This document shows positions 4,870 to 10,830 of a stretch of DNA of 23,593 bases, in pieces. The DNA lies in the IMG/VR virus record IMGVR_UViG_3300044489_000484, positions 1 to 23,593 of that record, one strand, 5' to 3'. This DNA comes from a virus. The translations under genes were made by a program, and so were the position numbers. Positions within the stretch are counted from its first letter, which is position 1. Every line of letters begins with the position of its first letter. The notes beneath the pieces were generated by a model. It was not told the DNA's origin. It was given only the letters and a program-made list of their open reading frames with translations, and made no database searches.

Positions 4870-6168
4870 ATGTCTTTCATCGGCTCCATAAATGCGGAAA
4901 CCCGGAAGTGGCTCGGAAACAATGGCGCCGCCTTCGATGGCCGGCAGGTCTATGTGGGCTGCTCCGGCAATTTCACGGCTGAGCAGATTCTCTCCCGGTA
5001 TGCGCCCAAGGCCCGGATTTGGGGAAACGACGTTTCTCTTTACTCCGGGGTCCTTGGGGCCTATCTGGCGAATCAGCCTTTTGATCTCTCTATCCGGGAA
5101 GAAGACTATAAGTGGCTCGAAGCCTACATGGAGGGTGTGGAAGGCAAGACCGCCACCGTGATGGTGCTTCTGGAGGCCCTGAAATACGAGAAAGCGAATA
5201 ATGCCTTCAAAGCCCGCCATTGGAACCACTACCGCCAGAACTTTGCCCAGTTCCACCAGGCCACGGTGGAGAAGCTGCGGGAGAGGAAGCAGGAAGTTCG
5301 CCTGGAAGGCTACACCAGCAAAGATATTTTCGACTTGCTGGATGAGATCCCGAAAGAGGCTGTGGTCATTGCCTTTCTGCCCACCTACGCCGGGGGCTAC
5401 GAGCGGATGTTCAAACGCCTGGGGGAAATCTTCAAATGGGACGAGCCCAGCTACCAGATCATCGATGAGGAGCGGAAAAAGCGCACCATCCTGAAGATGA
5501 TGGAGCGGGACTACCTCTATCTGGACGACCGGGTGTACCCGGGCCTGCCCATGGTGGCGGTGGTTAGGAAAGCGCGGATGAAGCCCGTCTACATCTATTC
5601 CAACATGGCGGCTTTGCGGCTGGCGGTTTTGAAACAGCAACGCCGCTCCCAGTTCATGCCCTTTGCCAGGCTGTCAGACCAGGACGAAATCACAGCCGCC
5701 TCCCAGCTCGCCATCACCCCCACCACCAATGCGGTGGTGAACTATTACCGGGACGTTTACCTGTCCAAGGGGGTGGGGATTCCAGCGGACGGTGAAGCAC
5801 CTTTCGCTGTGGCCGTGGATGGCAAGGTCTTCGGGTTCCTGATCTTTGCCAGGATGCAGGGGCGAGGCGATGTCTACCTCCTGGCGGACTTCGTGGTTAA
5901 TTCCACCCGCTATAAGCGGTTGGCCAAGCTGCTGCTCCTGGTGATTCAGACCAGAGAGATTCGCCGGATGATGGAAGAAAAGCTCCTGGCGGAACTCCCC
6001 TCCTGCACCACCATGGTCTTCACCGACAAGCCGGTGTCCATGAAATACCGGGGCTTATTTAAATTGGCCCGGCGAGACGAAGGAAAGCTGGTTTACCAGA
6101 CCGAGATGGGGATCAGAAACCTAAAGGAGGTCATCGGGTTGTGGCTGAAGAAATACGAGAAGTCCTGA
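4870..6168 (+). CDS. Adenine-methyltransferase-like protein with acetyltransferase-like C-terminal domain
   Basis: A 432-residue protein. The N-terminal half resembles D12/Dam-class DNA adenine methyltransferases and the phage group often labelled putative antirestriction adenine methyltransferase. VYVGCSGNFTAEQIL (27-41) sits where Dam has its SAM-binding loop. IWGNDVSLYSGVL follows like Dam's second SAM strand. L170-P-T-Y173-AGGYE sits where DPPY is expected, so the first catalytic residue differs. The C-terminal part (about 285-432), with FAVAVDGKVFGFLIFARMQG and VFTDKPVSMKYRGLFKLARR, looks GNAT-like and recalls Mu Mom-type modification enzymes; this is tentative. AAGG lies 10 bases before the ATG. 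The ParB-like gene overlaps its 3' end by 28 bp. Confidence 0.55.
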   Translation: MSFIGSINAETRKWLGNNGAAFDGRQVYVGCSGNFTAEQILSRYAPKARIWGNDVSLYSGVLGAYLANQPFDLSIREEDYKWLEAYMEGVEGKTATVMVLLEALKYEKANNAFKARHWNHYRQNFAQFHQATVEKLRERKQEVRLEGYTSKDIFDLLDEIPKEAVVIAFLPTYAGGYERMFKRLGEIFKWDEPSYQIIDEERKKRTILKMMERDYLYLDDRVYPGLPMVAVVRKARMKPVYIYSNMAALRLAVLKQQRRSQFMPFARLSDQDEITAASQLAITPTTNAVVNYYRDVYLSKGVGIPADGEAPFAVAVDGKVFGFLIFARMQGRGDVYLLADFVVNSTRYKRLAKLLLLVIQTREIRRMMEEKLLAELPSCTTMVFTDKPVSMKYRGLFKLARRDEGKLVYQTEMGIRNLKEVIGLWLKKYEKS

Positions 6169-7095: not shown

Positions 7096-7475
7096 ACTGG
7101 CAAGACGCCCTTCTGATCCACCGGGCCGCAGAAAACTACGAAGGCGCCGCAATCCTGGCCCAGGACCTGGTGCTGATGCGCCTGGCTGCGGCCTGGCCCA
7201 AGGTGAAGCGCCTTCTTCCGGAGCCCCCGGCCCAGGGCCAGGAGGTGGATATCAATGCCCTCTGGGAGAACACAAAAGTGGATTTTAAAGGGTGGGCGGA
7301 ATTGGCTCAGGTGCAAGCTCCCCAAGTAATGGACGGCTGGCAGGTTTTGAAGGGAAACCAGATTATCCTTCCGGACGGCAGCCTGAACCACCTGGCGGAG
7401 ACGCTGTTGAGGAAAGAGGCGGCCGGCCAGCTTCTGAGCCAGTTGGGGATCAAGCCAGGGGAAATGAAGAAATGA
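7092..7475 (+). CDS. Conserved-looking phage protein of unknown function
   Basis: A soluble, mostly helical protein of 127 residues with no motif I can name. It has an Ala/Leu-rich N-terminal helix pair (ALLIHRAAENYEGAAILAQD) and a C-terminal part (MDGWQVLKGNQIILPDGSLN onward) that could hold a winged-helix-like fold. Both ends are ATGA overlaps, tying it to the membrane protein upstream and the terminase nuclease downstream. Position before a split terminase makes a packaging accessory or adaptor plausible, but nothing in the sequence proves it. Confidence 0.6.
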   Translation: MNWQDALLIHRAAENYEGAAILAQDLVLMRLAAAWPKVKRLLPEPPAQGQEVDINALWENTKVDFKGWAELAQVQAPQVMDGWQVLKGNQIILPDGSLNHLAETLLRKEAAGQLLSQLGIKPGEMKK

Positions 7476-8026
7476 CCCCCGACCGCTTTTATAATCCGGA
7501 CCTGGACCTTTACCTGGGGATCGACAAAGGTTTCCGCAATCCCAACGTCACCATCTGGCTGCAACCCGACCGGAAGTGGGAGCGGGTCCTGGTTCTCTAC
7601 GCCCATTACCAGTGGCTCCGGACCCCGGATGAAAACGCCCGTATCGCCCTGGCCATTCATCGAGAGAGGGGATACGGAGCTGTGACTGCTGGATGGGGCG
7701 ACCCCTCCGCTCCCGATATGCTCCGGGCTTATTCCCTGGCTTTTAGGAAAGAAGGTCTGATCTCCGGTCCTCGGCGGCCGGTGGAATGGGGGGAAGAAGT
7801 TCTTAATCAATGGCTCAAGACCTCGCGTGTGACCCAGGGCCGGATGGGACTGGTGTTTGCCCCTGACTGCACCAGGAAATTCTATGCTCCCAACGACCGC
7901 AAAAGGGAGCAACCCGTGAGCCTGGTCCTGGAGATCCAGCATAAGGAGAAGCATGAGCCCGGGAAGGGCATGCACCACGGCCCGGATGGGCTGCGATATT
8001 TTTTCGGCGGCTGGGAAGGGGCCTGA
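7472..8026 (+). CDS. Stand-alone terminase nuclease-domain protein, catalytic residues intact
   Basis: A 184-residue protein matching the C-terminal RNase H-fold nuclease of large terminases. YLGIDKGFRNPNVTIW carries the first catalytic Asp (D18). AVTAGWGDPSAPDMLRAY carries the second (D77). HHGPDGLRYFF carries the last (D172), equivalent to the common D-x-x-DALRY end. All three metal ligands are present, unlike the related protein at 3148-3678. It would cut concatemeric DNA at the start and end of packaging. It lies upstream of a small-subunit-like HTH gene and of an ATPase-only large subunit, so the terminase here is split with the domain order reversed. The start lies in an ATGA overlap. 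Confidence 0.65.
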   Translation: MTPDRFYNPDLDLYLGIDKGFRNPNVTIWLQPDRKWERVLVLYAHYQWLRTPDENARIALAIHRERGYGAVTAGWGDPSAPDMLRAYSLAFRKEGLISGPRRPVEWGEEVLNQWLKTSRVTQGRMGLVFAPDCTRKFYAPNDRKREQPVSLVLEIQHKEKHEPGKGMHHGPDGLRYFFGGWEGA

Positions 8027-8070: not shown

Positions 8071-8544
8071 ATGGGGAAACGAGATGAGCTAAATGAGCGA
8101 GCGCTTTTGGCGGCATCGTTGCGCCGTCAAAAGATGACTATTCCCCAGATCGCCCTTTATTTAGGCATCTCAGAGCGCCATGTATATCGTCTCCTGATCC
8201 GGGCCGGTAACCTCTATAAATTGCTGGCCGCGGCCTCTGATTCGGAAAGAAATATCGGCGAGACCCTGACAGTTTTTGAAGAAATGGAAAGGGAGGCGCT
8301 GCAAAAATTCGCCAAGGCGCCTGCGAATAGCACCATAGCGGTGGCATACCTGAACGCGGCCCGGGATGCCCGCAAGGAAATAAAGAAGCTGCTCCAGGAA
8401 GCAGGTCTCATGAAGAAGGTGCCGGACCAGGTGAACGTGGGCTTCGTTACCAAAGAGGACCTGAAAGATGACGAAATCAGGGCCGATTCCCTGGCTCTCG
8501 TGAAAAAGGTCAGGGAACGGAAAGAAAAACCCCCGGAGACGTGA
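8071..8544 (+). CDS. Terminase small-subunit-like HTH protein
   Basis: A 157-residue protein. Residues 15-45 form a helix-turn-helix (MTIPQIALYLGISERHVYRL), followed by long helices and a charged Lys/Glu C-terminus. This is the layout of small terminase subunits: DNA-binding domain, oligomerisation helices, and tail contacting the large subunit. It lies 4 bp before the terminase ATPase gene. The ribosome site is not ideal: GGGGGG lies about 13 bases ahead of the chosen ATG, and an out-of-frame ATG follows it directly. It might instead be a general HTH regulator, but its position strongly favours a packaging role. Confidence 0.65.
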   Translation: MGKRDELNERALLAASLRRQKMTIPQIALYLGISERHVYRLLIRAGNLYKLLAAASDSERNIGETLTVFEEMEREALQKFAKAPANSTIAVAYLNAARDARKEIKKLLQEAGLMKKVPDQVNVGFVTKEDLKDDEIRADSLALVKKVRERKEKPPET

Positions 8545-8548
8545 GAAC

Positions 8549-9514
8549 ATGACTGGCCCGATCACGGCCTCGGACATGGCGCTACTTAGGCGGAACCTGA
8601 TCGAGTATTACCGGCAGGAAGGATTCAAGGACCCCGTGGAATTGCTGGAGTTCATCGAGAGCTTCTGGGGTTTGCGAATTCCCCGGGTGCAGGTCTGTCC
8701 CGAACATACCCCGCCGGCCCAATACATCATCGACAGCTTCTTCGAGCGGGTCCAGGACTCGGTATGCTGGGCCAACAGGGGCGGCGGCAAGACGCTGCTG
8801 GGAGCCCTGGCCACCTGGCTGGATACGGTTTTCAAGCCGGAGTGCGCCACCAAGATATTGGGCGGGTCTCTCGAACAGAGCAAGAAGATGTACCAGCACC
8901 TTACCGGGGAGGGTGACGGCTGGGGACTGGTGACCGAGGATTTTCAGTATCTCACCGAAGGGGAGATGCTGGCTGCTAAAACGGCAACGCTGAACGGCTC
9001 CAACATCAACATCCTGACCGCATCCATGAAATCCGTCCGGGGCCCCCACCCTCAGAAGCTCAAGCTGGACGAAGTCGATGAGTGCGATGACCGGATATAC
9101 GAGGCGGCTCTCCTGATCCCCAAAACCAAGCGGGGTATCAGAGCCAGCACGCAGATTTATTCCACCATGCACAAGGCTTACGGCTTGATGAACCGGGTAA
9201 TCGAGGAAGCGGCCTTAAGCGGGTACAAAATCTATAAGTGGTGTGTTTTCGATGTCATGGAGAGGTGCCCGGAGTGGCGGGAGTGTGCAACCTGCGAACT
9301 CTGGGAGGATTGCCAGGGCAAGGCCCGACATGCGGACGGCTTCTACAGCATCGAGGACGCAATTTCCGAGAAGCGCAAAGTCTCCCGGGACACCTGGTTG
9401 TCGGAGATGTTGTGCCATAAGCCTTCCCAGGAAGGCCTGATTTATAAAGAGTTCGACATCAATGTGCACGTGGTCTCGGACCCGTTTGAGGATGGGCCGG
9501 AGGGTGCAGGCTGA
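8549..9514 (+). CDS. Terminase large-subunit ATPase half, ending before the nuclease domain
   Basis: A 321-residue protein matching the ATPase half of phage large terminases. Walker A is R77-GGG-K81-T82 in CWANRGGGKTLLGALATW. Walker B is L-K-L-D174-E175. SMKSVRGPHPQKLKLDE is a common motif before it, and the sequence ends SQEGLIYKEFDINVHVVSDP, just where the nuclease domain would normally begin. Typical large terminases are 450-600 residues, so this is either a truncated gene or half of a split enzyme whose nuclease is the product of 7472-8026. The stop codon TGA uses the first base of the AT-rich block at 9514, suggesting that block interrupted the reading frame. Confidence 0.85.
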   Translation: MTGPITASDMALLRRNLIEYYRQEGFKDPVELLEFIESFWGLRIPRVQVCPEHTPPAQYIIDSFFERVQDSVCWANRGGGKTLLGALATWLDTVFKPECATKILGGSLEQSKKMYQHLTGEGDGWGLVTEDFQYLTEGEMLAAKTATLNGSNINILTASMKSVRGPHPQKLKLDEVDECDDRIYEAALLIPKTKRGIRASTQIYSTMHKAYGLMNRVIEEAALSGYKIYKWCVFDVMERCPEWRECATCELWEDCQGKARHADGFYSIEDAISEKRKVSRDTWLSEMLCHKPSQEGLIYKEFDINVHVVSDPFEDGPEGAG

Positions 9515-9991
9515 TTTGTTAGGAATTTAGACGGGCAATGTACGTTATTTAAGCTGCGCTAACGGCATTATTAACACCCTGTAAATAACGTCGCTGGAAA
9601 TCCCAATAGGAATTGGCGAGGGTGGAGTTTTGCCTTGTGACTATAATAACGCTTAGGACTAAATGAGTAAAAGTAAGAGGGTTGCGATTGTACTGATCGT
9701 TTAACCTGTTCAAAATATTGTATGTAGGCCGATATAGCTGTCTAATTATTTTAACCGAGTAACTTTTATTACGTACTACAAAAAAGGCTCGGTGATTGCG
9801 GTGAGATTGGCAGGGTATAAATATTTGTCATTATGGGCAGTTAGCGCAATGTAGTATTTAATAAAAGGAATAAGCAGGAGTAACTATCTAAACGCACTAC
9901 GTTATTATTATTCAATTAAGGAGTATTGTAAGACACTTAGGCATGTTGCGTGCATCTACTATTATTGAAAACCAAACCATTCCTAAAAAAT
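9514..9991. ncRNA. AT-rich 478-bp block with closing inverted repeat; candidate large structured RNA or MITE-like insertion
   Basis: No frame codes for protein. Base content falls to about one third G+C in several sampled lines, against more than half in the neighbours. The ends pair: 9514-9526 with 9979-9991, 12 of 13 bases. Inside are many short perfect helices: 9542-9551 with 9582-9591 (10 bp), 9575-9580 with 9619-9624 (6 bp, crossing the previous one like a pseudoknot), 9603-9607 with 9612-9616, 9680-9683 with 9703-9706 enclosing 9685-9688 with 9696-9699, 9754-9759 with 9788-9793, and 9892-9896 with 9947-9951. Size, location in phage-like DNA and the closing helix recall large phage RNAs such as GOLLD and ROOL, but no homology was seen. 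A mobile element with terminal inverted repeats is the alternative; no target duplication was found. Confidence 0.35.
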
Positions 9992-10653
9992 AAGGAGGCT
10001 ACCTTAACGAATAAAGTCACGGCTCTGAAGCCAAAACCAAATATCCCTCTGGGACGGACCAGGGGAGTCGCCGGTCCATAAAAAATCTCCCCCCACCCCA
10101 AATTAGAAGGCAGGCCAGAGGGAGCCCGAAGCTGAAGGGCAACCTGGGATAGCAACCAGGGGAAAAACAACGGCAAATACCCGGCAGCCAGCCGATTGGG
10201 GCGGTGAGAGGGTCCTGGGCCACCTGGTGCGGTAACTCAAACCAGGTGAGACGCAGGTAGGCGGCGCCACCGAAAGCGACCAGCAGATGAGCGGCTTGGT
10301 GATGAACCTGACAGCCCACGGATTTTTGAGTTTTCCGCAAAGAACTCTGGGGTCCTGGCCCCTTATCCAGGGCGAAGCTAAGAACCGGGAAAGAGGCGAA
10401 ACCGGGAGCGAACCGAACCTAACTGAGGCGAGTCCAGCCGGTCCGTGGTGCGAGTGACGGGAGGGCCGGAAGGAAGGAATGGCGAGGCCAGCGAGCGGCA
10501 ATAGCAACCGGGAAGGGCGAAGCGAAACCGTAAACCCTAAAGGGCGGGCGGCCCAGAAAGCCCACGGCGCATGGCTTTGATCGGGGGCGCAAGCGACGCG
10601 GTTTGTGCCCCTCATTGAGCGCCATGCTCAATACCCTCATGGAGGCAACGACG
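9992..10653. other. GC-rich stretch without a credible gene, with repeated motifs and hairpins
   Basis: Long minus-strand frames exist here, but their Arg/Pro/Ser/Leu-rich products have no protein-like pattern and no ribosome sites. The plus strand shows recurrent motifs: AACCGGGAA followed by GGCGA and ACCG near 10383-10405 and again near 10506-10530, and ATAGCAACC near 10150 and 10501. Stems include CACCTGGT with ACCAGGTG (10221-10228, 10241-10248) and ATTGAGC with GCTCAAT (10614-10620, 10626-10632). At the left edge a strong AAGGAGG (9992-9998) is followed by ACG and 24 sense codons to a TAA at 10079, possibly the remains of a lost gene start. The stretch could be a second structured RNA, a packaging (cos/pac) site or decayed coding DNA. 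Confidence 0.4.
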
Positions 10654-10830
10654 ATGGAAAAAGTGAAGAGCACCACCGGCCAGGTGCATATCATCGACCC
10701 GCACCGGAAGGCGGCCAAAGACGACCGGCCCCTCACCCTCTGCATGGCCAAGGTGACCGGGAGGTGGTCTGCTACCGGTGACAGCGTAACCTGTCCCCAT
10801 TGCAGCCGGATTGCCGGTTGGCTTTCGTAG
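10654..10830 (+). CDS. Small zinc-ribbon-like protein
   Basis: A 58-residue protein with cysteines in LTLCMAKVTG and TCPHCSRIAGWL, giving C-x(about 17)-C-P-H-C, a small metal-binding knuckle. The ATG at 10654 was chosen because GGAGG lies 8 bases upstream. Two earlier in-frame ATGs (10624, 10639) lack ribosome sites, and the first lies in a hairpin. It opens the second block of genes after the non-coding stretch. Short CxxC proteins of this type are frequent in phages; the role is unknown. Confidence 0.6.
   Translation: MEKVKSTTGQVHIIDPHRKAAKDDRPLTLCMAKVTGRWSATGDSVTCPHCSRIAGWLS

Follow-up and report, generated by a model that had tools for sequence, protein, structure and literature searches.

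To our knowledge, few bacterial or phage RNAs longer than 500 nt have a strong conserved structure, and the best-known phage examples are without an assigned function. The OLE RNA is carried inside an operon, and the put RNA is tens of nucleotides long. Among phage and prophage RNAs, ROOL is large, multi-domain, pseudoknotted and non-coding, with a solved example of 659 nt, and GOLLD, whose function is unknown, often exceeds 800 nt and has a complex covarying structure (PMC12286853). In phage HK022, early operons begin with the put RNA, a structured leader (PMC9378689).

Here, we describe a locus in the virus record IMGVR_UViG_3300044489_000484, analysed from position 1 to 23,593; this whole stretch of 23,593 nt is referred to as the window. 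The explanation that best accounts for the locus overall, and which we regard as likely, is a promoter block followed by a structured non-coding leader RNA of ~670 nt that contains a pseudoknot. The AT-rich block would drive transcription of an operon from ~9966, the first ~670 nt of the transcript would form a multi-domain structured RNA, and a hairpin, termed element C, would end this RNA just upstream of the first small gene.

By size and complexity, the nearest known kinds would be ROOL, GOLLD and OLE, and by position the put RNA; the RNA at 9966-10634 is itself longer than 500 nt and non-coding, with extensive covarying structure. It resembles ROOL in its similar length and in being a multi-domain, pseudoknotted, non-coding phage RNA, and GOLLD in being large, phage-borne, without an assigned function and complex in its covarying structure, but it has no Rfam match to either, stands at the front of an operon next to terminase genes where ROOL lies near tRNA islands, and, unlike GOLLD, has no tRNA in or beside it. 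The usual location of both near tRNA islands is thus not seen: the sole tRNA of the window, a tRNA-Gln gene, lies at 54-127 at its left end, and the RNA follows an ATPase gene. As with OLE, a large structured RNA sits within an operon, although here there is no Rfam match, the operon belongs to a phage rather than a host, and there is no known partner protein. Its position fits that of HK022 put as a structured leader at a phage operon start, whereas its ~650 nt and many domains contrast with the tens of nucleotides of put. The phi29 pRNA is likewise a phage RNA, and ours adjoins packaging genes; however, there is again no Rfam match, location alone is insufficient to make a packaging RNA, and other genes separate the RNA from the packaging genes in some relatives, such as L032.

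The packaging genes immediately upstream form a split terminase, in the following order.
7472 to 8026: nuclease-like protein.
8071 to 8541: small-subunit-like HTH protein.
8549 to 9514, plus strand: ATPase part of the terminase large subunit (ATPase-only protein), a complete gene of 321 aa with Walker A (NRGGGKT) and Walker B (LKLDEVDE) motifs.

The ATPase is named from its motifs and context, because the protein found no sequence match in Pfam, PHROG or PDB (profile and single-sequence PDB searches) and its AlphaFold2 model was unusable (pLDDT 45); annotated phage genomes gave one weak match to a terminase. Further upstream, window positions 4870-6168 encode a phage DNA adenine methylase-like domain fused to a GNAT-like domain.

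Searching with the ATPase protein yielded 22 viral contigs, and alignment-based searching 42 viral loci; genome contigs gave 19 loci, nearly all in MAGs named Deltaproteobacteria, Syntrophales or Syntrophobacterales. A DNA profile search placed the non-coding element in ~44 loci, in most of them at full length, from the terminase stop to ~10640. The first-pass annotation had treated 9514-9991 as a unit, but the conserved non-coding element runs instead from the terminase stop at 9514 to ~10640, so that this block corresponds to roughly its 5' 40%. Most relatives share a two-part composition, an AT-rich stretch followed by a GC- and purine-rich one. The whole sample of homologs represents one phage lineage, with ~30 distinct RNA sequences.

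It is the second of these stretches that carries the structure, the features of which are as follows.
~9966 to 10634, plus strand: large structured RNA, GC- and purine-rich, ~650-670 nt, its predicted start set by the promoter and its end by element C.
9992 to 9998, plus strand: AAGGAGG, Shine-Dalgarno-like with no start codon following, kept across most of the homologs carrying the TTAGGCA promoter.
10020 to 10033, plus strand: hairpin GGC...GCC, score 41.6 against a null maximum of 33 in one of two block alignments.
10057 to 10076, plus strand: helix 10057-10060/10073-10076, score 38.4 against a null maximum of 25.7 in one of two block alignments.
10179 to 10212, plus strand: helix 10179-10183/10208-10212, score 64-86 against a null maximum of 25-35.
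10215 to 10256, plus strand: helix 10215-10219/10252-10256, score 66-75, then a conserved GGTAGG.
10318 to 10347, plus strand: H-type pseudoknot, 10318-10322/10334-10338 crossing 10328-10332/10343-10347.
10385 to 10511, plus strand: domain closed by 10385-10388/10508-10511, with inner stem 10438-10444/10463-10469.
10562 to 10634, plus strand: element C, a long hairpin of 10570-10575/10621-10626 and 10587-10591/10604-10608.
10617 to 10629, plus strand: alternative small hairpin in element C, GAGC (10617-10620) with GCTC (10626-10629).

Computation shows a conserved, covarying RNA structure downstream of the AT-rich block. Covariation was tested helix by helix as a G-test with average product correction, summed over five stacked pairs, the null model re-placing each column's substitutions on the tree. 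With this purpose-written statistic (not R-scape), applied to alignments that were not structure-aware and to sequences from one lineage, ten helices, the H-type pseudoknot at 10318-10347 among them, scored 44 to 107 where the null maximum was 35 in 30 runs (31 non-redundant homologs, 9972-10660). Block realignments confirmed most of these helices and pointed to a further two towards the 5' end, both seen in only one of two alignments. The aligned fold reached -196 on the plus strand, as against -160 on the minus strand and about -107 to -118 for column shuffles, and model scores were far higher on the plus strand, which is the RNA strand. The fold of the single sequence is not more stable than its shuffles (z -0.62); the case for the RNA rests on covariation. 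The region is called non-coding because indels within it are mostly not multiples of three (10 of 80 are), and on the same grounds reading frames across it, such as 10103-10615 on the minus strand, were rejected. From the position of the promoter we infer that transcription starts at ~9966.

Independent pair counts for several of the domains agree with this test. The pseudoknot, with a U-rich loop 1 and an A-rich loop 3, has a covariation of 0.461 in an ungapped alignment, compared with 0.172 +/- 0.024 in shuffles (0/500), and sliding abolishes the signal; eight of its ten pairs change on both sides, its second stem is 96% paired, and three of the five pairs of its first stem hold in most sequences. 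In some relatives (L043 and L044), a second pseudoknot of the same type (GGCC-UUUU-GGGUU...GGCC...AACCC) is inserted in the stretch that links the 142-nt domain to element C. For the domain at 10377-10514, covariation is 0.364 against 0.089 +/- 0.015 (0/500), a signal carried by the seven-pair inner stem, which is 96% paired, with five of seven pairs changing on both sides and single positions showing as many as four Watson-Crick pair types; the closing stem is 85% paired, with no double changes in that alignment. The RNAalifold structure underlying model R2 was poor (5 pairs), so that the model acted mainly as a sequence profile, and the domain structure was supplied by hand. Element C, in an alignment fitted to its own model, has 95.6% of cells paired, 12 of 20 pairs changing on both sides and a covariation of 0.423 against 0.206 +/- 0.012; it scores 48-75 bits on the plus strand and below 30 on the minus strand. 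Within 10617-10629 the pairings GAGC/GCTC and GCC/GGC overlap, both being kept by compensating changes in some relatives, and could form a switch or a pseudoknot.

The first-pass annotation had proposed an undescribed large structured RNA, and one does exist, but further along: it starts at ~9966, close to the 3' edge of the block then indicated, and reaches ~10634. No Rfam family matches it: a covariance-model search of the window and 14 homologous loci found nothing relevant at gathering score, and permissive thresholds, applied to the window region and five homologs, gave nothing relevant either. In one relative, the start of a group II intron (RF02012) lies downstream, at L103:3322-3377. 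A blastn search of annotated phage genomes returned no homolog of the RNA, and a literature search, which covered few subscription papers or preprints, found no paper describing it. Of 29 genomes of the host's class, 8 have element C; the 142-nt domain model finds 7 of 395 genomes of the phylum, and six of these seven were already known from the class set. Pattern loci with no domain-model match (L075, L076, L078, L081, L085, L088-L090, L092-L097 and L100-L102) were discarded as chance matches. Scanning 2.9 million viral contigs with a pattern blind to the terminase returned 13 contigs, all of them this RNA by profile, and two that were new carry this terminase too. Homologs of the RNA always lie beside this terminase lineage, and only the promoter module is also found elsewhere. 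Judged by these searches, the RNA family appears to be new: it is lacking in Rfam and occurs in many uncultured phages of a single bacterial group.

Downstream of the RNA lies the operon, beginning with the following gene.
10654 to 10830, plus strand: first small ORF of the operon, 58 aa, with a Shine-Dalgarno sequence, GGAGG, at 10641-10645.

Its genes include an AAA ATPase, DUF1257, DUF3150, ParB, a beta clamp, a recombination directionality factor-like protein and a PD-(D/E)XK nuclease, a content that marks it as an operon of the replication and excision kind. There is no terminator-like site on the plus strand between 9966 and the first gene. Relatives keep the RNA while the first gene after it varies; extra copies of element C stand ahead of a second gene in four of them (L028, L037, L044 and L058); and in L028 and L058 the promoter and element C are kept, with a short leader between them and the body of the RNA missing. 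Taken together, these features fit an accessory-cassette leader RNA, in which the RNA body would be an accessory cassette within the operon leader. Such an RNA could be made as a leader, parted from the mRNA near element C, and then act in trans, as a large RNA with a structural or protein-binding role comparable to operon-borne OLE or to phage ROOL and GOLLD. The missing bodies in L028 and L058, and the retention of the RNA in front of varying genes, point towards such a trans or accessory role, which we put forward tentatively as the likeliest account of function and not as an established one.

That the RNA always heads the same operon suits a role in cis also, which is the main alternative. 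The RNA would then stay on the operon mRNA and control either elongation, by put-like processive antitermination, or translation, with element C as a translational or processing part. Its constant place directly upstream of the operon and in the same orientation, with no terminator-like site intervening, speaks for this, as do the repetition of element C before the second gene and its two overlapping pairings (TGAG/CTCA and GCC/GGC), as in a switch. We nevertheless consider a cis-acting leader somewhat doubtful, given that ~650 nt is far above the size of put RNA and of most leaders generally known, that the gene following it is not the same across relatives, and that two of these do without the body yet have both promoter and element C. 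A bolder extension of the trans-acting reading, rather unlikely in our estimation, is that the family represents a new class of giant trans-acting phage RNA, which by analogy with ROOL and GOLLD might form an RNA-only or RNA-protein particle, possibly multimeric and produced where the replication operon begins, while being unrelated to them in sequence and structure and having exchangeable promoters.

The AT-rich block in front of the RNA fits a phage operon's promoter together with its upstream control region, for which the following features were mapped.
9515 to 9936, plus strand: AT-rich upstream regulatory region, conserved in sequence without covariation (31 homologs; fold z +0.77).
9757 to 9779, plus strand: candidate regulator-binding repeat D1, copy 1 (GAGTAACTTTTATTACGTACTAC), a direct repeat.
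9878 to 9900, plus strand: candidate regulator-binding repeat D1, copy 2, 74% identical to copy 1 and 121 bp apart from it.
9937 to 9954, plus strand: promoter core TTAGGCATGTTGCGTGCA, with a GG-to-GC distance of 12, as in sigma-54 -24/-12 elements.
9960 to 9965, plus strand: TATTAT after the promoter core.

In an alignment of 22 homologs not selected for the motif, TTAGGCAY-N6-TGCA reaches at least 90% conservation; a second alignment of 31 sites (AGGCAY...TGCA) was chosen with the motif, and its invariance there is therefore by construction. The site has the spacing of a sigma-54 promoter (GG and GC with 10 bases between) and only partly the context TGGCAC-N5-TTGCW: the -26 T of the consensus is an A in the window, and the nearest site to consensus is that of L058 (AGGCACGACAGTTGCA). 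In many sites TATTAT-like hexamers stand 17 bases after TTAGGC, making a sigma-70 reading (TTAGGC-17-TATTAT) possible. We lean towards recognition of a sigma-54 type, the alternatives being sigma-70 or a phage sigma-like factor. All eight host genomes examined (8/8) encode RpoN (rpoN), and nine viral records, some of them fragmentary, yielded no phage-borne enhancer-binding protein. The motifs duplicated upstream of the promoter core are the D1 copies, within which GTAACTt..tACG.ATTAC is conserved in the homolog alignment. 

The promoter and the RNA are separable. Four relatives (L063, L065, L067 and L072) have the promoter module without the RNA, 2-31 bp ahead of a sigma-like gene. The product of that gene is related to sigma-70 region 2, at a score under the curated cut-off. 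A family weakly similar to sigma-70 region 2 is encoded directly behind the module or later in the operon (L065:7621-8298, L058:3783-4673) and could be the phage's own transcription regulator. Conversely, the RNA is kept without the TTAGGCA motif in L009, L010, L011, L027, L003, L029, L033, L062, L021, L030, L037 and L039, and some relatives have a different AT-rich promoter region, with a TATAAT-like sequence, before the same RNA; the promoters in front of this RNA are interchangeable. The same observations bear on whether the block is a replication origin or partition site in place of a promoter, as its AT-richness, its repeated GTAAC-type motifs and the nearby ParB-like and replication genes might suggest. 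This is improbable, since the module stands so close before a gene start in the four relatives mentioned, its core motif lying ~45 nt before the L065 start codon, and since a TATAAT-bearing region takes the place of the block in others.

Less credible still is that the AT-rich block is itself the large structured RNA, as had first been supposed from its internal helices. Its basic description holds: G+C is ~37% in 9501-10000 against 54-62% in the surroundings, there is no long or conserved reading frame in it, and its ends do pair, as a closing inverted repeat of 16 nt (9511-9526 / 9979-9994, 88% complementary) whose left arm overlaps the terminase stop codon. Several internal inverted repeats also exist, but the fold of the block is matched by its dinucleotide shuffles (z +0.77; 82 of 100 are at least as good), and the compensatory changes expected of real helices are absent, none scoring above the phylogenetic null in 31 non-redundant homologs (best E ~0.1), whereas the adjoining region gives its ten covarying helices with an equal number of sequences. 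In some relatives, moreover, another promoter replaces the block.

We give almost no credence to a MITE-like insertion that split the terminase gene: the AT-richness, the terminal inverted repeat and the presence of the element on several contigs of one MAG would suit it, but 21 of 22 relatives have an ATPase gene that stops at roughly the same residue or a few residues further on (the other being cut by the contig end) and the nuclease part is a separate gene upstream, with the order nuclease, small subunit, ATPase kept in many relatives, so that no gene has been split, while the MAG copies are each accompanied by their own terminase, neither arm of the terminal repeat is preserved in sequence in relatives (alignments, by inspection), and, in place of dispersal across different sites, full-element copies accompany this terminase lineage, mostly at the same gene junction.

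The locus illustrates that, if covariation is left unchecked, a promoter that is AT-rich and bears repeats may pass for a structured RNA. The structured leader RNA that probably follows this promoter adds a family to the large RNAs, with ~30 distinct sequences, a mapped pseudoknot, a defined position in an operon and natural variants that lack the body, which makes the choice between a function in cis and one in trans directly testable.
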